A DNA stretch of 64,000 bases from Prorocentrum cordatum (Eukaryota > Sar > Dinophyceae > Prorocentrales > Prorocentraceae): assembly GCA_963575745.1 (NCBI GenBank), contig CAUYUJ010018042.1:130001-194000 (forward strand), given 5' to 3'. The translations under genes were made by a program, and so were the position numbers. Shown piece after piece: positions 2,390 to 41,909 of the stretch. How positions within the stretch are numbered: the stretch's first letter is position 1; every line of letters starts with the position of its first letter. Under the pieces are notes generated by a model, which ran no database searches, had not been told where the DNA came from, and saw only the letters and a program-made list of their open reading frames with translations.

Positions 2390-3005
2390 TCTCTTGGAAT
2401 GCCTGTCTGGGGCCTCGTGGAATAGCTTGGGGACGTGGGATGCTTCGGGGGGCCTCTGGGGGGCTTCCTGGGGGCGTCTTTGAGGCCTCTTGGGGCCTCT
2501 TGGAGGGCCCTCGGGGGCCTCTGGGAGGCTCGAGGGGTCATCTCGGTGGGAAAGGCTCAACATGTCAGTTCGGATTCCCCTCTTGGGCTTTCTTAGAGCC
2601 CCCATTGGGGTCCTCCAGGGGCTGTCTTGGGCCGTCTGGGGGGACCCCTGGGGCTGACTTCGGGACCTCTTGGGCCGTCTTGGGTCCTTCGTGGAAGCAT
2701 CATGGGGACGATCTTGGGGGTCACTTGGACCGTCGTGATCGTTGTCAAAACGTAAAATGCGAATGTGCTGACAATGCACGCTTTTTCAAGGGAATGGGAT
2801 GATGTTGGCCTCTTGGGGCCCTCTCGGCGATGCAATGGAGGCGCTTTGGGGCTGTCGCGGGGGCCTCGTGGGCCATCTTGCAGCCATCGTGGGCCGTCGT
2901 GAAGCTACCCTGGGCCATCATGACGCTCTCTTCGACTGTCTTGGCGCTCTGTCTGGGCCCTCTTGGGCTGCCTCGGAGCGTTTTTGGGGGTCGAGACCTC
3001 TGCGA
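2390..3005. repeat. CTTGGGGCC minisatellite with AT-rich island
   Basis: A degenerate array of GCC(T/C)CTTGGGG units. An AT-richer island at about 2735-2805 (CAAAACGTAAAATGCGAATG) resembles islands at 60470-60535 and 61275-61340, and inverted ones at 43975-44060 and 44365-44450. This looks like one copy of a composite repeat rather than genes, although its bias keeps several frames open. Confidence 0.7.
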
Positions 3006-9998: not shown

Positions 9999-10583
9999 GT
10001 CGTGTCGACCGGCGACGACCCCGCCGCCGGCGTTCGACGTGGAACTCCGCCGGCGACCCAGAATCGATCGATGCTGAACGATCAGACGTCTCGGAAACGG
10101 CCGATCCTGCAAGGTTGTGGAGGATCCCCGCGGCGTCGGGAACAAGCGGCGGGGTCGACGCGACGAGGTCGCGCGGGTCGCGAGTTCCGTGGGCTGGCAA
10201 GCCTCGGACGTCGGTTGGCGCACGGGTGTCACGCCAGGGCCCCCCGCGGGCCGCGCACGGCCCGCAGCCCCCCGCCGCGCCCGAGGCCCCCACGCAGCGC
10301 GAGGGAGGTCTGGGCAGGGACGCCCGCGCAGAGGGGGGCTCGGCCACGGGGGGAGGCCCACCTGGCCACAGCGGGGCCCCTCCCGAGCGACGAAAGCCAA
10401 GCGGGGTCGACCGCGCCGACGTTGGCGCTCAAGCTCCCCGGAGGGAAGAAGGAGGAGGAGGAGGAGGAGGAGGAGGAGGGGGANNNNNNNNNNNNNNNNN
10501 NNNNNNNNNNNNNNNNNNNNNNNNNNNNNNNNNNNNNNNNNNNNNNNNNNNNNNNNNNNNNNNNNNNNNNNNNNNNNNNNNNN
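9999..10583. other. GC-rich spacer, (GGA)n tract and 100-N gap
   Basis: 9999-10448 is GC-rich with no recognised gene. 10449-10483 is (GGA)n. 10484-10583 is exactly 100 N, a conventional scaffold-gap size, so the real repeat length is unknown. An open frame runs through the gap only because N and GGA contain no stops. Confidence 0.7.
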
Positions 10584-13264: not shown

Positions 13265-13520
13265 TCGTCTCCCTCCTCCTCCTCCTCCTCCTCGTCCTCC
13301 TCCTCCTCCTCCTCTTCCTCCCCCTCCTCCTCCTCTCATCCTTCTCCTCGTCCTCCTCCTCCCCCTACTCATCCTCATCCGCATCCTCATCCTCCTCTTC
13401 CCCTCCTTGTCCTCATCTTTCTCCTCTTCCTCCTCCTCCTCCTCGTCCCCATCCCCCTCCTCCTCCTTCTCCTCCTCCTTGTCCTCTTCCTCCTCCTCCT
13501 CCTCCTCCGCCTCCTTCTCC
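13265..13520. repeat. (TCC)n microsatellite abutting the spliced leader
   Basis: About 250 bp of imperfect TCC triplets, which read as (GGA)n on the strand of the adjacent minus-strand leader. Confidence 0.95.
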
Positions 13521-14720
13521 TGTGGCTCGGGGAGACCCCAGTGGCACCTCCTGGTCTGAGGCGAACCGCCGTTGACGATCACGGATGCTGGGCCCGCGGT
13601 TTCTCGTTTGCAACCTCTTGGTTGCAGTGGTTTTTGCCGCGGGCACATTGTTGCCGTGCTTGCGGGGGTGCGGGCGTTGCGCAACGCTCCGTGCATTGTC
13701 CCTTGGGCGCCGATCCCGCGCCATTTTGGCGCGGGGTGTAGGGCGGTCCTTGGTTTAATGTTTTTTCTTCTTGATTTCCTAAGGCACAGCGTTGCTGGCG
13801 CTATGTGCCCTTTTTGCGCGTGTGGCCTTGGTGTTGGCCGTTGGCCACTTTGGGCCGTTGGCCAGGGCACGTTGGCCCACGCTTTGTTGAGCGCCACGGT
13901 TTCGTTCTGCCTCCTCTTCCTCATCCTCCTCCTCCTCCTCCTCCTCCTCCTCCTCCCCCTCCCCCTCCCCCTCCCCCATCCCCTGCTCCTCGTCCGTACT
14001 CGCTGCTCCCTGCGCCTTTCAGCCATCCCTCTCCCCCATCCCTCCCTGCCTCCCTCCTCCCTGTTCCCTCCTCCGCCCTCCCTGTTCCCTCCTCCTCCCG
14101 CTCGCCCGCCGGGCCCCCGAGGCGACCGCGGAGTCACCGATGGCACAGCCGCCCCGCGTGATCGCGCCCAACGGGGCTGGCTGGGCTGCCACGCAGCAGC
14201 GAGGCCCCTCGTCGTCGGCGTCGTCGGCGTCGTGTTCTCTTGCTTCTCCTGTTCCTGAGAATCCCCCTGCCCCCTCTCTCCTTCTCCTCCTGCTCCTCTT
14301 CCCGTTTCTCCTTTCCCTCCTCGTCCTCCTGTTCCTTCTCTCTCCTCCTTCTCCTCCTCCTCCTCCTCCCATCTCTTCCGCCTCCATCGTCCAACGAAGA
14401 GGAAAGAGCTTCACAAACAGGAACGTTTGAACGTCCGCTCGGATCTCTTGAGCTGGCGCTGCGCCCCCGTGGTTGCGCCTTGGTTGGGGGGGAACCGGCC
14501 AGATTTGATCCTCAACGCAACTCGAGTTTTCGAGGACTGGCCCGCCTTCCAACAAGGAGGAGGAGGAGGAGGAGGAGGAGGAGGAGGAGGACGAGGAGGG
14601 GGGGACAGGGAGCAGGGAGGGCGGGGGAGCAGGGGGGAGGAATCCAGCCACCCAGGGCGCACGAACGAGTCCGCGGGCCCCGCCCGCGCTCACCCTTCCC
14701 CCCCGCCCTCGACATCAGAC
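13521..14720. other. Unassigned region with (TCC)n/(GGA)n tracts
   Basis: (TCC)n at about 13920-13980 and 14270-14395, C-rich CCTCCCT runs at 14030-14110, and (GGA)n at 14561-14600. 13561-13910 is T/G-rich single-copy sequence with repeated TTGGCC and GTTGGCC motifs. No ORF is persuasive as a gene. Confidence 0.5.
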
Positions 14721-33205: not shown

Positions 33206-33873
33206 ATGTCAGGAGGAGGAGGGAGGAGAGCAGGAGGCGAAGGAGGAAGAGGAGGAGGAGGCGGAGAAGGAGGAGAAGGAAGAAGCCAGAGTATGGTCGG
33301 GAGGGGATTGGACTCTGGCATGCCCCCTTTTCGAAGATGGAGGATAAGCAGGGGGACTTCGAGGAAGAAAGGGACAAAAGGACAACGAAGAGGAGGAGGG
33401 GGGGAGCATAGGCCGGAGGAGGAAGACGAGTAGCAGGAGGAGGAGGAGGAGGCGCAAGAACGGAGGAGGAGGAGGAGGAGGAGGAAAGGAGGAGGAGGAG
33501 GGGAGGAGGAGGAGGAGGAGGGGGAGGAGGAGGAGGAGGGGGGAGGAGGGAAAAGGAGCAGGGAGGAGCAGGGAGGAGGGAGGAGGAGGAGGAGCAGGAG
33601 GGAGGCGGGAGGAGGAGGAGGAGGCAAGAGGAGGAGGGGAGAGGGAGGAGGGAGGGAAGGAGGAGGAGGAGGAGGGAGGAGGGAGGAGGAGGAGGAGGCG
33701 AGGAGAGGAGGGAAGGGAGGGGAGGCGAGGAGGGAGGAGGAGGAGGAGGAGGAGGAGGAGGAGGAGGAGGAGGAGGAGGAGGAGGAGGAGGAGGAGGAGG
33801 GAGGAGGAGGGAGGAGGGAGGAAAGTGGAGGGGGAGGAGGAGGGAGGAGGAGGAGGAGGGAGGAGGAAGGAGG
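33206..33873. repeat. 670-bp purine (GGA)n tract leading into the spliced leader
   Basis: Almost all plus-strand bases are G or A, in GGA, GGGA and GGAGGGA units, with a less pure patch at 33280-33425. The tract ends at the first base of the perfect leader. Confidence 0.95.
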
Positions 33874-33895
33874 TCCGTAGCCATTTTGGCTCAAG
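33874..33895 (+). promoter_or_regulatory. Perfect genomic dinoflagellate spliced leader (DinoSL)
   Basis: All 22 nt match the canonical leader with T at the variable first position. It is followed by AGGCCTTC, not a GT donor or Sm-site region, so it is not an SL RNA gene. It forms the exact 5' boundary between (GGA)n and the LINE. Confidence 0.95.
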
Positions 33896-34007
33896 AGGCC
33901 TTCTCCTTAACTTCCCAACCTCGGCTCAGGAGCGAAAAGGTCTGGCCGCCCTTGGCCGTTCGCGCCCCTGGGTGCCATACTGCTGGCGCTCAGGACCTGA
34001 GGTATAC

Positions 34008-34260
34008 ATGGGAAAGGGGAATGGCCGTGGGTCCCAGTGGGGCCCAACCCAGCACAAAACCGTCGGGCCCCCATGTGGCCGCTGCGGCTGCAAAAGAACT
34101 TGGAGCACAGCAAGTTTTTCTATCATTGTGGTGTTCCTTACGGTCGTCCTGGTCCGCCACCCCCGTCACCCAATGGAGGGGATTGGAGAGATCCGCCGCC
34201 CCCCTGGGCTCAGGGGCGCGGAAAGGGCAAAGGTAAGAAAGGATATCGTGGTGCGCTTGC
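34008..34260 (+). pseudogene. LINE N-terminal Gly/Lys-rich and Cys segment
   Basis: From ATG at 34008 the frame gives MGKGNGRGSQWG, then CGRCGC. After a frameshift near 34095 a second frame continues as FFYHCGVPYGRPG and a GRGKGKGKKG tail. Together these resemble a small nucleic-acid-binding finger plus basic stretch ahead of the endonuclease part. The two frames do not join in this copy. Confidence 0.5.
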
Positions 34261-36366
34261 ATGGGGCCAGTCGGCCCCAGAGGGCGGGCGTCCAAAAGAC
34301 GGCGGGACCAAAGGCGGGGGGCGTGGCGACCGCCCAGCCACACACCGCACGACTCCCTCCACCACCTCTTCCAGTTGGGGAGTGGGGGAAACAGTTTTGA
34401 CGAGGCTACTTCAGGGTTCCTCATCCAGGCTTGGAACGCCCACCAGGCCCACCAGGAGCCCCAGGCCTCGGCCTCGACCATCCTCCAGAAGCTTGAGAAG
34501 CAGGTCAAGAAATATGAGGGGGAGGTCGATACGATCCAGGACCAGATCATTGAAGCAGAGCAAGTTATCACAGAGCACTTGGAGTGGAGGCAGCAGTTGG
34601 GTAGGGATTTGCAGGCAGCTCAGGTCCAGCTCACTGAGGCTCGCACCAAGGTACATCTCAAGCTTCAAGAATCGATGGGTCCCGGGCCTTCTCCAGCAGC
34701 TCCGACTGGGGATACGTATGCGGGGATCCTTAAGCAGGCAGTTGGAAATGTGGTGCACGACCCGACTATTCGCGGGCAAATCGAGCACCAGTTCTTCTCC
34801 CTCCTCGGCGCGCTCACCCCGCCGATCCCAGCAGACCCAGGAGGACAACCAGGAGGGGGAGGTGCCACGCCAGCAGCCGCCGCAGCACCCATGTCAGCAG
34901 CAGAGCGCATCGCCGTTGATGGAGGGTATGTGGAGGACTCCGAGGAGGACTTGGAGATGGACGAGGAGTGCGATCAGCAGATCCAGGCGCTTTCGGGGCC
35001 CCAGGGACAAGGTCTTGGCAAAGATTCCCTGGGCAAGCCTCGCAAGATTTGTTTGGCCTCAAGCGCGCGAAAGGGAGTCCGGAAGCCCCACGTCAAGAAG
35101 GAGGCGTGCTCTAGGAAGGGGCTTCAGCAGCAGCAGCAGCTACAGAGGCCTCGGGAGCAGCAGCCTCGGGAGCAGCAGCTGCAGCAGCCCCAACAGCAGC
35201 CCCGGCTCCAGAGGCAGGACAGGGATCCGGCCATCGTGGAGCTGACCCAGGAGGCGCCGGGGGGCTTGCCGCCGCCTCGTCAGCCCCGCGGCCGCGGGGG
35301 TACCACTCAGCCTCTTCTCCTCACCACCCTCAACCTGAACTCTTGGCATACTGGGTCAGGGTTGGTTTCCGAGGTTGCAGGGGATATAGCGCACATCCAG
35401 GGGCACAAGCTACTAGAAGGAAGTAAGTATGATGCAGTGGTCTCTACACTTTTAGCCATAGGTTGGAAGCACTATGAGGCCCCTGCTACCAAGCTAGATA
35501 CTGGGTTTGCTTCAGGTGGGGTCTTCATACTGGCCAAGAAGCACCTTGATATCCGGAATATGCCGTCAGCGCCGTCGATCGCGGTTCCTGCCAGGCTGGT
35601 CAGATGCTTTCTCAGGACTTCTGCACTCGGCACGGTAGCTCTCTATTCTATCTACCTGCACGACGGCGTCAGATTGGGACTCAAGAACATCAGGATCTCG
35701 AAGGCTCTCGGGGGTGATATCCAGAGGCGCAAGTTCCCGAGCATTGTAGGCGGGGATGTCAACATGAACCCTGCGTTGCTCTCGGAGCACGTCCCACTCC
35801 GCGGCTTGGATTTGGTCATCCGAGCCCCTGAGGCCCATACCTACCGCTCCAAGGATACCAGGACTAAGATCGACTTCTTCCTGGTGTCGGCCCTTCTCGA
35901 CAGAGTGGCGCCGACGATTTCGGTTGACCTCAACGTGGCATCGCGCCCCCACTCGGCAGTCAACCTCACGCTGCAGAGAGCAATCAGCGACGTATCCCTC
36001 ACGGCACCCGCACCGTACCAGGCTGCCCCTTGTGACGCGGCAATTGGACCCCAACGTCAGCCTCCAGACTGCCAAGATATTGCCGGGCCAACCGAGGCCG
36101 TTCTGGCATCTTACACTGACGATTTGTGGGTCACCTGGACAGCAGATGGGGAGCGCAGGCTCCAGGGATCGCGCCTTCTGACTGAATCTTATGGTGTCTG
36201 GGCTACCATAGCATGGGGGGAAGAACTTAGAGGCCACTCAGACTACCCCCAAAGGTCGTCAACCAGGGACTTCGATGGAATTTCAGTCCAAGCCTCTGTC
36301 GCAGCGACTGACCACCAAGCACTACAGCAAGGCAGTCCCCCACAGAGCTACGACCTGGGTTATTAA
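34261..36366 (+). pseudogene. LINE coiled coil and AP endonuclease domain
   Basis: 701 open codons. Residues about 76-134 are a coiled coil (KLEKQVKKYEGEVD...), about 285-320 a poly-Gln/Arg linker, and about 350-570 an exonuclease-endonuclease-phosphatase fold. Recognisable motifs are LNLNSW (Asn of motif 1, near 354), GGVFILAKK, GGDVNMNP (the Asp/Asn metal-binding motif, near 497), KIDFFLVS and a terminal RPHSAV (His, near 562). The motif after the first strand reads IQGHK where the family normally has Gln-Glu-His, so the metal-binding Glu is Gly here. In a working element this enzyme nicks the target DNA. The frame is lost near 36215; coding-like sequence continues in another frame (GKNLEATQTTPKGRQ...). 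Confidence 0.8.
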
Positions 36367-36959
36367 TCGGCGTGGGGAGCTGCGCGGCCACGTCGCAAAG
36401 AGCGACGGTCGGCTGTCCGCAGAGGGTTTCAATGCAGCCCACCACTTGTCGGTGCTACCCAGTCGGGGGGAGGTGGGGGGCAAGATTTGTGGCATGACCC
36501 TAGGGAAAGAGGTGCAAGATTTGTGGCATGCGACCCGAGGGAAGATATGATCTTCCCTCAAGACGTCGTCCAGAGAGGCTTCCCTCGACACCCTGGGAAA
36601 GCTCGAGGCCATCTGCGCTATTATCCACAACGGGGGCCTTCCCAAGGAATCCACCTTCAGATACGAATATTGGCAGGCTTGGTGTTCCGAGGCTCTCGAA
36701 GGATCTCGAAGTCAATTTCTCGCGCATCTCAAAGGAGGCAAAAAAAAGGAGAAGCCAGCGTCTACCCAGTGGATCTGGGTTTTTCTTCTCCACTTACAGT
36801 TGGGATGGAGCATGAGTGGAGAAAGTGGAATGGGGCATGGAGCATGACGGAGAAGACAGTTGGTTTGTCAATCAGGCCCCCACCCCAGCACCTCCCCCCC
36901 CCCCCACGGTGGGCATGATTTAAGGGGCTTCGAAGGCGTTCAAGAAGAGGACGTGCACC
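36367..36959 (+). pseudogene. LINE linker between endonuclease and RT, disrupted
   Basis: Coding-like text resumes after a local duplication of CAAGATTTGTGGCATG (36481 and 36513): ASLDTLGKLEAICAIIHNGG, YWQAWCSEALEG and FLAHLKGG at about 36575-36740. An inserted stretch, 36790-36950, contains repeated GGAGCATGA/GGGCATGGAGCATGA and a C-run, and has no coding signal. Confidence 0.55.
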
Positions 36960-38276
36960 CCTGATGGCTTTCACCCTCGCCACTTCGCCATCATTTCTGA
37001 ACCTGGTCAGTACTTTCTCTGCTCGCTACTGCATCTCTCCCAAGTGGTCAGTGTCTTGCCTCGCCGAGTTCGTGAACTTATCGCGCTTTTGGCCAGGAAG
37101 GTCAAGGGGCCAGGCAGGCGGCCCATAGGCCACTAGTCGGCCTTCGCCGGGATGCAGGGCCAGCGCCTCTGCAAAGATGCGAGGGAGTGGGAGGATGCTT
37201 GGGGGACGGGTGCCCAGTACAGTATGAGCAAGGGAAGGAGTGCAGAAGATACGCATGGCGCGCTGCAGTCAGAGCTGAAGGGAGGGTAGCAGACAATATG
37301 CATGCGCTGACGATGCTTTGGGGCATTAAACAGTTCTACGAGAACCTAGATCACGATTTGCTCTATTATTCGTCTAGCGCTACACATGTACTCCATCCCG
37401 CGGAGGATCTTTCTAGAAGGAGCCGTGGGCCCACGGATCGATCCTTCCAAGGGAATTGTCGCCGGGTCCAAAACAGGCACGGCCGAAGTCAAGATGTATG
37501 TTATGCCCGTGCTAGAGGACGTCTCCGCCACAACGGAAGAGCAAGCATCGGCATCCATACACATTGACGGCATCACTTCTAGTTATTGGACTTTCGGTCT
37601 AGAAGGCTGTGTTCCGTATCCCTGGCGTTTTGGGTTGCAGCTCAAGGAGGGTCTGGCTGCCCTTCACCTTCCTCTTGCTGTCGACAAGCTTGCTATTACA
37701 GCTAGTTCAGGCCCCCTGCTCAAGAGGGCCAAGGAAGTCCTGGGAATGGTTGCAGGGGCGGCGTTGCCGTCAGCTTCTCACCTAGGCATCGACTTCGCAT
37801 CAGGCACGCATAAGCGGCGCCCTGGGGCCAACTCGACGCGGAGAGCAAGATGGGCTAAGACGCATTCGCGTTTCTGTCGTCTTCGGGGTGCCAAAAGTAA
37901 GAATCCGACGGATAGGGCTCGCTTCTTTGCCCCTGGAGTTCGGTCAGCTTTATCGCACGGTGGGAAGGTTCACCGTTACACGCCCGCTGAGATAGATAGG
38001 CTACGCTCTACGGCTAGGATTGTTTCAGGACACCAGCTTAGAGGAGCACGGACCGACATTTGGTGGCAAGTACACGAGGTTCCAGATCTTCGTAGTCTAG
38101 CACCCAGCACTTTGGAAAGATATTGCATGGAGCGGTGGAGGGCTACGTCTGGGAGAGCAGAGTTTGGCATGCATGCAGATGGGCTAGATGCTAAAGAACT
38201 CAGGACTCGCTTTGTGGCCGTGCAAACTATGTTCCAGGCCCCAGGGAACACTTCTTGGCTCGGGCGCCCTGCATGA
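36960..38276 (+). pseudogene. LINE reverse transcriptase, three frame blocks
   Basis: Block 1 (36960-37131) has PDGFHPRHFAI and RELIALLARKVKGPGRRPIG, the N-terminal fingers of the domain, ending at TAG. Block 2 (about 37187-37390) has WRAAVRAEGRVA and MLWGIKQFYENLDHDLL; the motif A Asp after Trp is Gly here. Block 3 (37386-38276) has KGIVAGSKTGTAEVK (motif B region) and IHIDGITSSY, where the second Asp of the motif C pair is Gly (GAC GGC at 37566-37571). The thumb follows (LQLKEGLAALHLPLAVDKL...). Loss of both the motif A and motif C residues would abolish polymerase activity. The order and spacing still match dinoflagellate LINE reverse transcriptases. Confidence 0.75.
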
Positions 38277-38288
38277 CCCATTTCAGAC

Positions 38289-39644
38289 ATGCTGCTTTGG
38301 CTCCAGAGAGCGGGCTGGCACTTCGACAACCCGACTACCCTCCAGCCTAGAGTTGGAGGCGGCATCCATATCCTGGAGACTCCGCCAGTCTCGATTGCCA
38401 AGCAGCTCACGGAGGGCCTCAAAGGGCAACAGTCTCGCCAGGCTGTAGGCATCGAACTGGGTGCTCCTCCCTCTCCCCCTCCTCCGCCAGTCGGACAGGA
38501 AGGGGGTGTGGACTGGGTCCAGGTCCGTAGGGGGCTTAGGCACTTTCGAAAGCGGCTCACCCCCGACGAGTACACCAGCCTCAGGCACTACATTTGCGGC
38601 TCCCTCATCACAGGTAAGGTTCTGTCAGGCTGGGGTTATGATCTCCAGCCATCTTGCCCTTATTGTCTGGAGGTAGATACACAATACCGCAGGCTATGGA
38701 CGTGCTCCTTCGGGAAGGAGTTCAGGGAAGAAGTTATGGGCTCGGACGCCATCGAAGGGGCCCCGGACGTGTCGACTTTCTATTCGCACCTCTGGCCTCC
38801 CAGACTTCAGCTCGAACCACTGCTGGAAACATGTAATACTCGCTATGTAGATGCCAACAGGCCCTGCGACCCCTTCGAGTTCGAACCCAACAGCGAAATC
38901 TTCACGGATGGTTCGTGCTTTGACCCCGAAACCCGCCACCTTGCCCGCGCAGGATCCTCCGCAGTAGAATTAAACGAGGACAACTCGCTCAAGGGGGCAA
39001 TCTTCGGGGGCCTGCCGTCTTTCGGGGAGCAGACCGCAGTCGACGGGGAGCATGGGGGGCTACTTGCGGCAGCACTGCGTTCCAAAGCAGCCTCCACGAA
39101 CACATTCGTTGTAGATTGTGCGGCCCTCGTCCGCAGATCTATCAAATCCTGCATCGACGGTAGATCCCCATTCTCTCAGGTTTGGAGGCACATCACCCGT
39201 GCGCTCCCCGCGGGCGAATGGCTGCACTTAGTCAAGACTAGGGGCCACAGGAAGGAGTCGGAGGCAGTCAATGAGTTAAATCTGAGGTACATCTTAGGTA
39301 ACATGGCAGCAGATCACTATGCAGGGCAAGGGGCGCGTAGCCATCGCCCAGCACCCGCCGTAGTTGATGAGCATGTTGCAGCCTATGATCTCTACCTGTC
39401 TGTCTTGGTCGGGGCCGGCAAGATCCTGGGGTCCTGGCCGAAGTCCGAGGAGCTTTGGGGTGAGCTGCAGAAGCTGCCCAAGGAGCCTAGACCTTCACCG
39501 CCAAGACCGTTTGCCGAATTACATCAGCCAGCTCGGGATGGGCAGAGATATCGGCGCCTTAGTTGCTTAAGGATTGTCTCCCCCAAGTCGAAGTTTGACT
39601 GCCAGGCCACGTCGCCAGCTATGGGGGGTGATCAAGCAGCATAA
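38289..39644 (+). pseudogene. LINE RNase H domain, catalytic residues intact
   Basis: 451 codons in the same frame as RT block 3, separated only by a TGA at 38274. Residues about 195-360 form an RNase HI fold: TDGS (Asp, 38907-38909), DGEHGGLLAAAL (Glu), VVDCAALV (Asp) and GNMAADHYAG (Asp), giving the complete D-E-D-D set. RNase H removes the RNA strand after reverse transcription. It is the least damaged part of the element, with 451 uninterrupted codons. Confidence 0.8.
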
Positions 39645-39679
39645 GAGACTTCATCACTCGCTGCATGTAGGCTGGCTCG

Positions 39680-39847
39680 ACTCAGGGCCCCCTCTGCAAC
39701 CATTGTGGAGGTTTCAGCACGCATCGCGGTTCGAAGAAGCTCACTGACCCCAGGGGTTGCACCAGGAAGACAAGCAGTGAGCTCAGGAAGCGTAGGAAAG
39801 GCATGCCCCAGATCAGTAGGATCTTGCCGACAGCAGTGGGAAGGTGA
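39680..39847 (+). pseudogene. LINE C-terminal zinc finger after a frameshift
   Basis: In a frame shifted from RNase H, PLCNHCGGFS...RGSKKLTDPRGC gives C-x-x-C-G-G ... KKL ... C, then a basic tail ending TGA at 39845-39847. The pattern matches the extreme C-terminus of LINE ORFs of this type as I recall them. It places the frameshift near 39630. Confidence 0.5.
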
Positions 39848-40114
39848 GGGAGTGCAGCAGTTCAGGGAGCTGTGGGAGGGACTGTCTTCTGTCCTTCTCG
39901 CCACCCTGGGGGGAGGGGGGCCTTAGGTGGAAGGGCCCCTGCACCAGAGTGCTGGCTGGGGTCACGGCACAGGGTTGCCGTGGCATAGGATGCTCATTCG
40001 GCTTGGGTGCCTCCCCTAGTCTGCCCCTTCCGCCGCTTCTGCCGCTTTCCATCCCTCCTTGGCCTCGGGCCCAGCCTCCCGCCAGCTCTCGCGCGCGCGC
40101 CGTGCTTGCCCGCT
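39848..40114. other. Spacer or LINE 3' sequence, pyrimidine-rich toward its end
   Basis: 40010-40110 is C/T-rich (CTTCCGCCGCTTCTGCCGCT), a possible trans-splice or splice acceptor tract for the next ORF. No gene seen. Confidence 0.35.
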
Positions 40115-40684
40115 ATGATGAAGAGCAAGCAGGGACCGTATCAGGCGTGCGCGACTCAGGGCTGCCGTGGCTGGATCTTTTCCTCGATGTTCAAGGAGGA
40201 GGACGAGGGCATGTTGGCGTGCAAGCACTGCGGGAACACGTTCGACCCGCCGCAGGAGGCACTGGGGGCCATCAGGGAGGCCCGTGCCGCCCGCGCTGCC
40301 GCCGCCCGTCAGCCTGCCCCCGCTGGTCCAGCTCTCATTGGCCCAGTTGTTCCTGGACTCGTGAGGCCCCCTGCCGTTCCCAAGCCCTTAGCCAAGCGTG
40401 AGCTGCCGCTGTCGGTCAAAGGATCGGCACCGCCTCCTCTCCCTGACCCCAAGCTCTCGGGCCCTCCTGTTCCTTTTCCTCCTGCTTGGCCCCACGGGCA
40501 GGAGCTGCCCATCCAGGCCGTGGAACATCAGGGGCTGGAGGCGCCCCCCAAGGCCCGCCCCTCTGTCAAGGCGCCGCAGCAGGGCAAGGGGGCGGCTAAG
40601 TCGTCCTCTTGGAGGCCGCCGCAGCCCAAGGCGCCGCCTGCTCGCAGCCAAGGGGAAGGGCCGCGGGAAGGGCCGCAGGGCTAA
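40115..40684 (+). CDS. Zinc-finger, Pro/Ala-rich ORF, probably retroelement-derived
   Basis: 189 codons from the first ATG of an ATGATG pair (40115) to TAA at 40682-40684. The frame extends upstream to 40007, but the ATGATG is better placed after the pyrimidine tract. Residues 10-40 contain C-x4-C (ACATQGC), GWIFSSMFKEE and C-x2-C (CKHCG), a plausible four-Cys zinc ribbon. The rest is low-complexity Pro/Ala/Lys-rich and basic at the C-terminus (QGKGAAKSSSWRPPQPK), as in nucleic-acid-binding ORF1-like proteins. It follows the LINE on the same strand. It may be the LINE's own 3' ORF, the start of another retroelement, or a host gene. The frame is undamaged. Confidence 0.5.
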   Translation: MMKSKQGPYQACATQGCRGWIFSSMFKEEDEGMLACKHCGNTFDPPQEALGAIREARAARAAAARQPAPAGPALIGPVVPGLVRPPAVPKPLAKRELPLSVKGSAPPPLPDPKLSGPPVPFPPAWPHGQELPIQAVEHQGLEAPPKARPSVKAPQQGKGAAKSSSWRPPQPKAPPARSQGEGPREGPQG

Positions 40685-41215
40685 GCGCCCGCGGCACACC
40701 CAGAGCACGGTTGTGCCGCGGCTGCGCATTCGAGCGGCTATCTCGAAGGCGGCGAATCGCACCTTGAAGGGGCGGGGGCGCCACTTCAGGGAGAGAGCCG
40801 CTCACGCGTGGAAGGAAGTCCGTTGGGCCCACGGCCATGTTCAGAGGGGGGGGGGAGAGGCGGGCCAAGGGGGCCCCCTCATCTTCCGACCCTGACATGG
40901 AGTAGGCAGCTGCAGGGGGAGCGGTCAGAGAAGGCCAGCATCGGATAACGGCAGGATAACAGTACCGGATAAGAGCAGATCCAACGGCTTCCTCTCCCTG
41001 TTGCCACATCCCACCCTGTCCTGGGGCCAGCCTAGGCAGGGTTTGGGCGTGGGGCTTCGGCGCCGCTTACTCCCCTCGCCCCCTCTATCCCCCCTCCGTC
41101 GCAGCCTTCCTTCTTCTCCGCAAGCGTCGCCTTAGCCTCCCGTCTATAAAAGTTGTTCTCGCTCTCTGCTCCTAGAGTGGACCCGCGACACAGCAGTGCG
41201 TCAGCGCATCAGAGG
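40685..41215. other. 3' flank up to the (GGA)n tract
   Basis: Mixed sequence including GCGGATAACGGCAGGATAAC repeats near 40945 and a TATAAAAG near 41141. No gene recognised. It may still belong to the LINE insertion. Confidence 0.35.
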
Positions 41216-41520
41216 AGGAAGGGGGGGGGGGGGGGGGACGAGGGGGGGGGGGGGGGTGAGGAGGACGAGGACCAGGGCGAGGACGAGAAGGAGGAGGAAG
41301 ACGAAGAAGAAGAAGAAGAAGAAGAGGAGGAGGAGGAAGAGGAGGANNNNNNNNNNNNNNNNNNNNNNNNNNNNNNNNNNNNNNNNNNNNNNNNNNNNNN
41401 NNNNNNNNNNNNNNNNNNNNNNNNNNNNNNNNNNNNNNNNNNNNNNCCTCCTCCTCCTCCTCCTCCTCCTCCTCCTCCTCCTCTTCCTCCTCCTCCTCCT
41501 CCTCTTTCTCCTCCTCCTCA
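41216..41520. repeat. (GGA)n, 100-N gap, (CTC)n
   Basis: Purine G/GGA runs to 41346, exactly 100 N (41347-41446), then the complementary CTC repeat to 41520. The strand switch across the gap suggests either an inverted-repeat arrangement or an assembly join of two separate tracts. Confidence 0.9.
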
Positions 41521-41521
41521 A

Positions 41522-41909
41522 CCTTTTTGGCTCAAGATGCCGAGTTTCGTTTGGAGCGAAGTGGGTACCGCCAGTCCGCAGCTTGCATCCTGTGTGTTTC
41601 GGGCCCCCTTGTGGGCCTTCTCCCGTGCCTGTCCGCCCAGGCGCGGGACGCGCGCTCCGGCCAGTCTGCCCTGGTCGGTTCTACTCCCCGCACTATGTGA
41701 GCTCCTGGAGGAGAGGCATCTCTCTGAGCGATGGCGTGGAGGTGGCAAGCGCCGTGGCGTGCTGCTCGGGCTGGTGGTTTCGTGTCGACGCTCGTGGTGG
41801 TGGCCAACTGCAGCGCGGAGGCGGACCCTACTCGGTCTGCTCGGCATACGGCCACTGGGAGTACGACAGTCACGGCCACGTGGTGTGCTCCAAGTGTGGC
41901 GGAGCCTGA
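41522..41909 (+). pseudogene. LINE-like ORF start behind a truncated leader
   Basis: 41522-41536 is the last 15 nt of the spliced leader with one mismatch (ending TTTTTGGCTCAAG), followed at once by ATG at 41537. The frame ending at 41907-41909 carries PYSVCSAYGHWEYDSHGHVVCSKCGG, a C-terminal finger in which one expected Cys (CSAC) is Tyr. The ATG frame is a different one, so a frameshift separates start and finger. Interpreted as a decayed 5' piece of another leader-tagged retroelement. Confidence 0.5.

Follow-up and report, generated by a model that had tools for sequence, protein, structure and literature searches.

Relict spliced leaders at the 5' ends of LINE copies within GGA and CCT repeats of a dinoflagellate genome

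How does a complete dinoflagellate spliced leader come to stand in genomic DNA, directly at the edge of a LINE? In the window analysed here (the whole stretch of 64,000 nucleotides from Prorocentrum cordatum), the full 22-nt leader TCCGTAGCCATTTTGGCTCAAG (D = T) occupies positions 33874–33895 of the forward strand and is followed by AGGCC.... An earlier note on this DNA had claimed a perfect leader without a GT donor, and the sequence bears this out, as the next two bases are AG. The note had also described the upstream tract as pure (GGA)n; it is GGA-rich, but with 77% GGA matches across 33415–33873 it is not pure. The 21-nt leader core occurs twice within the window without a mismatch, compared with a mean of 0.01 matches in 100 shuffles (up to three mismatches allowed), and zero 3' leader parts of at least 11 nt were found in 20 base-shuffled windows. 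In the 4.13-Gb assembly, 33,832 leader-like places (21-mer, up to two mismatches) were counted, against nine for the reversed pattern; a chance match was therefore rejected as the source of the leader. An SL RNA gene was likewise rejected as the identity of the locus, given its flanks and the lack of a donor. Among 90 leader places fetched in contig order, only four have GT directly after the leader.

Two further leaders in the window, unmentioned in the earlier note, are listed in Table 1. The third matches at 18 of 22 positions when read across the full length; it is preceded by CCT repeats (41447–41519) and followed by an ATG and, by eye, a zinc-finger-like frame.

Table 1. Features of the window, with the evidence for each or a remark.
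Feature	Position	Strand	Basis or remark
Second full leader (D = G; G + 21 nt)	13264–13243	-	After GGA repeats 13272–13521; starts another family, members including L130 and L145
GGA-rich tract, 5' flank, likely insertion target	33415–33873	+	Tandem-repeat search
LINE body of a broken copy (about 7.3 kb)	33896–41212	+	Sequence matches to other copies
Conserved 5' block	33896–33935	+	Genome search matches 2–41 and 2–38
709-codon open frame	34237–36366	+	ORF1 C-terminal part and endonuclease-like stretch, by eye
308-codon frame	37350–38276	+	RT to RNase H region of broken copy, by eye
455-codon frame	38277–39644	+	Weakly similar to L040 RT-bearing frame
231-codon frame	39989–40684	+	Zinc-ribbon-like Cys pattern, by eye
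3' tail, short repeats CAGTGCGTCAGCGCATCAG	41194–41212	+	AGTGCATC units in other copies
GGA-rich tract, 3' flank	41213–41346	+	Then N run 41347–41446
Third leader	41525–41536	+	12-nt 3' part or diverged full leader

The element that begins with the leader spans positions 33874 to about 41212 and has GGA on both sides, a tract that looks like its insertion target; the earlier note had seen the upstream tract, not its presence at both ends. A Pfam search of this copy returned no match above a cut-off. The 455-codon frame contains an RNase H-like stretch (by eye), and one frame of the element weakly matches the RT-bearing frame of another leader locus, L040 (E 4.3e-6). Since the copy is broken and without a Pfam match, its LINE nature rests on the structure of its copies together with this weak protein match. 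The 231-codon frame, which shows a weak IBR match below the cut-off (E 0.09), lies inside the element and is co-linear in other copies. An Rfam search of the window gave nothing at gathering thresholds, and on 33860–34300 it gave a single chance-level match; an HDV-like ribozyme was not found there. The conserved block directly after the leader is 93–95% alike in sister copies whose matches end after about 40 nt; about 40 nt are likewise common to L080–L084, which differ afterwards. This block is possibly a promoter or an RNA-binding element. At 41213–41540, the GGA tract 3' of one element and the CCT tract before the following one are bridged by a run of 100 N. A duplicate locus (C6225) is 96.7% alike over 1,137 bp of the upstream flank of the window element, and in the stretch fetched downstream of that duplicate no match to the window was found; for this reason the scaffold join across the N run (41347–41446) may be wrong.

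Whether the leader marks a real element boundary was decided by other copies. A genome search with positions 33896–34250, from which the leader had been left out, returned at least 34 other matches, so that an accident at one locus was rejected, and 34 copies were fetched with their upstream flanks. Among these listed matches, 27 of 34 carry the leader. All 20 copies whose match begins at query bases 1–5 have it at the same junction, free of mismatches in 11 and with an indel in L070; the remaining 14 include seven more (L074, L080–L084, and L086), with small deletions directly 3' of the leader in L074 and L086. Five copies (L073 and L075–L078) are 5'-truncated, leaderless, and joined straight to (GGA)n; in L079 the 5' flank is masked by N, and L085 has neither leader nor repeat tract. 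In 32 of the 33 other copies with a readable 5' flank, GGA-rich sequence adjoins the junction or lies no more than about 25 nt away (by eye), and CCT is found in none. The copies on C21133 and C16735 look alike at both ends and, like C6225, are not independent. The exact LINE 5' end claimed earlier is thus a real boundary, at 33896. The earlier note had looked to further copies starting with the leader for support, and to a single chance leader with unrelated starts elsewhere for its refutation; with the leader present in most of the listed copies, at one junction wherever this can be read, its reading has come through that test. As in relict DinoSLs, a cDNA-like unit opens with the leader, and no GT donor comes after the leader.

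The 3' ends were approached with positions 39000–41220 as query (40 of 66 candidates scored), yielding at least 48 other matching pieces, many of which extend to the last query bases. Twenty of the 48 listed pieces were fetched, two of them N; GGA-rich sequence follows 15 of the 18 readable 3' ends by eye, or 13 of 16 without two duplicates. At most of these ends GGA comes directly after the short-repeat tail (...CAGTGCATCAGTGCATCAG), at a few after a short stretch; L100, L101, and L103 do not pass into GGA. Two copies with irregular flanks permit a target-site duplication to be read by eye: AGGGGATGCAACC / AGGGGATACAACC in C14022 (12 of 13 nt) and GAAGAGGAGGCGGA in C12623 (13–14 nt, the first G possibly belonging to the tail). 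The automatic search for duplications had picked matches within repeat tracts, and elsewhere any duplication is hidden by the repeat. Independent copies flanked by the same simple repeat on both sides were found in the window family and in the family F1 described below.

These copies display the leader at the element boundary, 5' truncation, tandem relics, two-sided repeat flanks, and, in some families, a fixed strand. We consider it highly probable that the LINE mRNA receives a leader by trans-splicing, that reverse transcription at a nick in (GGA)n copies this mRNA as far as its 5' end, giving a copy that starts with the leader, and that trans-splicing is then renewed. In detail, trans-splicing would join the host spliced leader to the LINE transcript, and complete reverse transcription at a nick in the (GGA)n microsatellite would let the new copy begin with the leader; full-length copies would retain it, and an early stop of reverse transcription would lose it. 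In a renewed transcript of a full-length copy, the AG within that copy's leader (TCCGTAG) would act as acceptor, a fresh leader being added in each cycle and the old one shortened to a 15-nt relic. The host would thereby provide the 5' end every cycle, and the leader carried in DNA the splice acceptor; family-specific target recognition would direct several families, with a fixed orientation, into (GGA)n or (CCT)n. From sequence we infer the trans-splicing of LINE transcripts, the order of these events, and that the enzyme would act on its own RNA and its endonuclease choose the repeat. The claim that a trans-spliced LINE mRNA was copied back into DNA is well supported by the leader-bearing copies, by the truncated leaderless ones, and by the tandem relics.

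The relics are 15 nt long (CCATTTTGGCTCAAG) and lie behind the outer leader, once each in L054, L056, and L064 and twice in L072 (all among the 20 copies whose match starts at query bases 1–5), as well as in L084; some of them carry one mismatch, and in the window copy the leader is single. They are truncated after nucleotide 7 of the leader—that is, they start just past the TAG inside the older leader—which indicates that the older leader served as acceptor. Such use of an older leader has been described for host mRNAs (PMC3229502; PMC7245778). Doublets of leader and relic occur at 2,030 places genome-wide (up to one mismatch in 36; control 0), and at the 90 contig-order places an exact relic is present in 10, a relic with up to four mismatches in 17 (the 10 included), and a doubled relic in one. 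Tandem relics would be the mark of repeated cycles. The earlier note had supposed that every new copy brings a cap-ready 5' end and may not need a fresh trans-splice. This part is not supported: truncated copies come without the leader, the cap belongs to the SL RNA and cannot be carried by DNA, and the relics point to renewed trans-splicing at the AG of the old leader. What the leader in DNA brings would be a splice acceptor, not a cap.

The same relics weigh against the idea that the leader in DNA is an encoded functional part, a promoter or 5' UTR, copied without renewed trans-splicing. A promoter role for a retroposed leader was proposed by Song et al. (2018; PMC6050394), an ATG right after the leader at several loci would leave the leader alone as 5' UTR, and the next 40 nt are also conserved; but tandem relics, in several copies and at all the doublet places, need renewed trans-splicing, and we regard this explanation as very unlikely. 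The leaders differ from the canonical sequence by a mean of 4.8%, compared with 15.7% between the bodies and the window copy (computed on 18 of the 20, with L053 and L072 omitted and the count for L070 inflated by its indel). Lower divergence of the leader is expected if leaders are renewed, although functional constraint could produce the same, so that the comparison is only suggestive.

Template jumping, which is known for non-LTR enzymes, could likewise yield a complete leader: the enzyme would pass from the LINE RNA to SL RNA or to the 5' end of another mRNA, and the LINE mRNA would never have been trans-spliced. Yet in the 27 copies with a leader, the exon end passes straight into the body, with small deletions at two of the junctions and no SL intron, and the tandem relics start precisely behind the internal TAG, as splicing predicts; there is little chance that this explanation is correct. 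A LINE of the SLACS, CRE1, or NeSL-1 type inserted beside an SL RNA gene has next to no chance, for although LINEs that target spliced-leader exons exist (PMC4640811) and the leader immediately adjoins the element's 5' end, the far side of the leader is (GGA)n and not an SL gene, most 3' ends also pass into (GGA)n, and leaderless truncated copies sit in the same repeat, so that insertion in an SL RNA gene was rejected. On flanks, junctions, and relics together, both of these explanations fit worse than a trans-spliced mRNA copied back into DNA.

A second family, F1, repeats this arrangement in CCT repeats. Two of its copies (L005 with L051; L017 with L052) share 91% of their bases across 5,805 bp, a likeness that stops at the repeat tracts, with CCT on both sides; each copy reads CCT repeats, leader, ATG, and so on to an end in ...AAGGTTACGTTCG, followed by CCT repeats. 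In one of them (L005 1501–3021 with L051), an open frame of 1,869 codons is entered through the leader, and the frame is interrupted in the other. The first ATG of the long frame directly follows the leader, which would then be the whole 5' UTR. An ATG in this position is seen at other loci too (e.g., L007 and L029). The F1 product matches RVT_1 (E 7.7e-16) and, weakly and below the cut-off, Exo_endo_phos, the APE-type endonuclease (E 0.0044); its best PDB matches are the R2 and L1 reverse transcriptases, and its one database relative, at 28% identity, bears the name Prorocentrum cordatum. At L005/L051, the outer flanks beyond both CCT tracts resemble one another for some 100 nt (GCGGTCC.AAGAGCGCC..., by eye), as if this copy lay between two units of another repeat.

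The generality of this pattern was gauged on the first 90 listed exact leader places, taken in contig order with flanks disregarded. Directly upstream of the leader is a CCT tract in 38 and a GGA tract in 17 (55 of 90), compared with 2.1% of random positions directly after such tracts, a background obtained from the window together with 20 fetched loci. Nine leaders follow other simple repeats, and 26 follow none by the threshold used, of which L123, L128, and L135 have shorter CCT tracts by eye. Across the genome, 14 pyrimidines directly precede a leader at 10,160 places (up to two mismatches in 35; reversed control 0), where by our own estimate about 220 of the 33,832 leader-like places would be expected by chance. 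A preference for CCT as a polypyrimidine tract for trans-splicing was also considered; it is weakened by the tandem relics of the GGA-oriented window family.

Downstream sequence of up to 5.6 kb reveals LINE frames at 13 of 20 loci, 12 of these called by frame similarity, with four of the 12 themselves queries. The call for L034 comes from weak Pfam matches below the cut-off, and L039 overlaps L040, to whose element the match in L039 belongs. L031 and L032 have no LINE frame, and their 5' ends group with LINE-bearing loci; L035, L044, L045, and L047 show no LINE frames in up to 5.6 kb downstream, with L044 and L047 lying behind CCT/GGA tracts.

When the 90 loci were grouped into families by their first 110 nt, a family of 18 was found to comprise 14 CCT, 0 GGA, and 4 other loci (by eye, two of the four have short CCT tracts; one follows CA repeats), a family of five was GGA in 5/5, and F1 was CCT in 3/3. 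Orientation is mixed in the L003 group and in the group of the second window leader (L145 GGA, L130 CCT), and the L011 group has neither repeat. Fisher tests on the clear families, which were grouped and compared after the data had been seen, gave p = 8.6e-5 for 14:0 versus 0:5 and p = 6.6e-12 for 17:0 versus 0:24 (19 window-family copies counted). Some LINE families thus keep to a fixed strand in their use of (GGA)n or (CCT)n. ACA, CAT, AT, or CA repeats precede several leaders, some of them in the L011-type family that avoids GGA and CCT (loci of this kind are L011, L031, L040, and L119, and also L024, L035, L039, L049, L134, and L142), which suggests further microsatellite targets. On contig C39, three near-identical leader loci (L114, L115, and L116) lie 3–5 kb apart with no preceding simple repeat and may be tandem copies of a leader-tagged gene.

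The only IMG/VR contig found with an exact leader (L149, IMGVR_UViG_3300045993_001077; 2746–2766 and 2893–2913, reverse strand) is AT-rich and giant-virus-like by eye, with a glycosyltransferase frame; one of its leaders lies ahead of a stretch richer in GC that contains a 254-codon frame (1936–2700). This looks like a host cDNA that entered a giant-virus genome together with its leader tag.

The leader-bearing LINE copies suggest that, in this genome, trans-spliced RNA is reverse transcribed as far as its 5' end by machinery of the LINE type, and microsatellite flanks are a possible fingerprint by which retrogenes could be assigned to their maker. For the element, the leader would answer a long-standing difficulty of LINEs, the recovery of a complete 5' end when no upstream promoter is present, by way of host trans-splicing. 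Homing to (GGA)n or (CCT)n that is specific to family and strand would also greatly extend the range of natural site-specific LINEs. The combination of leader and microsatellite target suggests that dinoflagellate retrogenes could be products of LINE enzymes. The broadest form of the proposal, in which many LINE families have host-supplied 5' ends, cycle-counting relics, and one-strand homing, and in which LINE rather than LTR elements made most of the tens of thousands of leader-tagged cDNA insertions, host retrogenes included, is offered tentatively, with the balance of our judgement falling just short of it.

Relict DinoSL sequences on recycled mRNAs were reportedly described by Slamovits and Keeling in 2008. 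Further cases on recycled mRNAs and retrogenes (PMC3229502; PMC6050394; PMC7245778; PMC12014239) share with the present copies a genomic leader without a donor, 15-nt relics cut at an internal AG, and tandem relics that count cycles; in its available parts this literature describes host genes, and not a LINE family with a regular leader 5' end or insertion into microsatellites. The enzyme behind dinoflagellate retrogenes has been stated to be unknown, with Ty1/copia favoured as the source (PMC6050394), and Ty1/copia transcripts have been found (PMC3942190); leaders have also been noted near endogenous viral sequences, with LINEs suggested as mediators (PMC10235124). Among the matches listed from the open-licence literature, in the parts available, no report was found of LINE families with the leader as a regular 5' end, or of strand-specific GGA/CCT homing of such LINEs; each of the two, leader relics and LINEs that home to microsatellites, is known by itself, and it is their combination for which no report was found.

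SLACS and CRE1 are LINEs that target spliced-leader exons. A leader sequence beside a LINE is common to such elements, NeSL-1 included (PMC4640811), and to the present ones, but there the leader is target DNA, whereas here it would have arrived with the RNA. In Hydra, about 30% of transposable-element Iso-Seq reads carry spliced leaders (PMC12220107); the available part of that report covers RNA, with no return of the leader to DNA, whereas the leaders described here are in DNA. Finally, microsatellite-specific non-LTR retrotransposons, such as Togen in (TG)n and some HERO families (Kojima and Fujiwara, 2004, cited in PMC4640811), share with the present families the insertion into one simple repeat. 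Compared with Togen and HERO, the families of P. cordatum, one of which has a weak APE-type endonuclease match below the cut-off, are distinguished by their (GGA)n/(CCT)n targets, by a strand that is fixed in several families, and by full-length copies that start with the leader.
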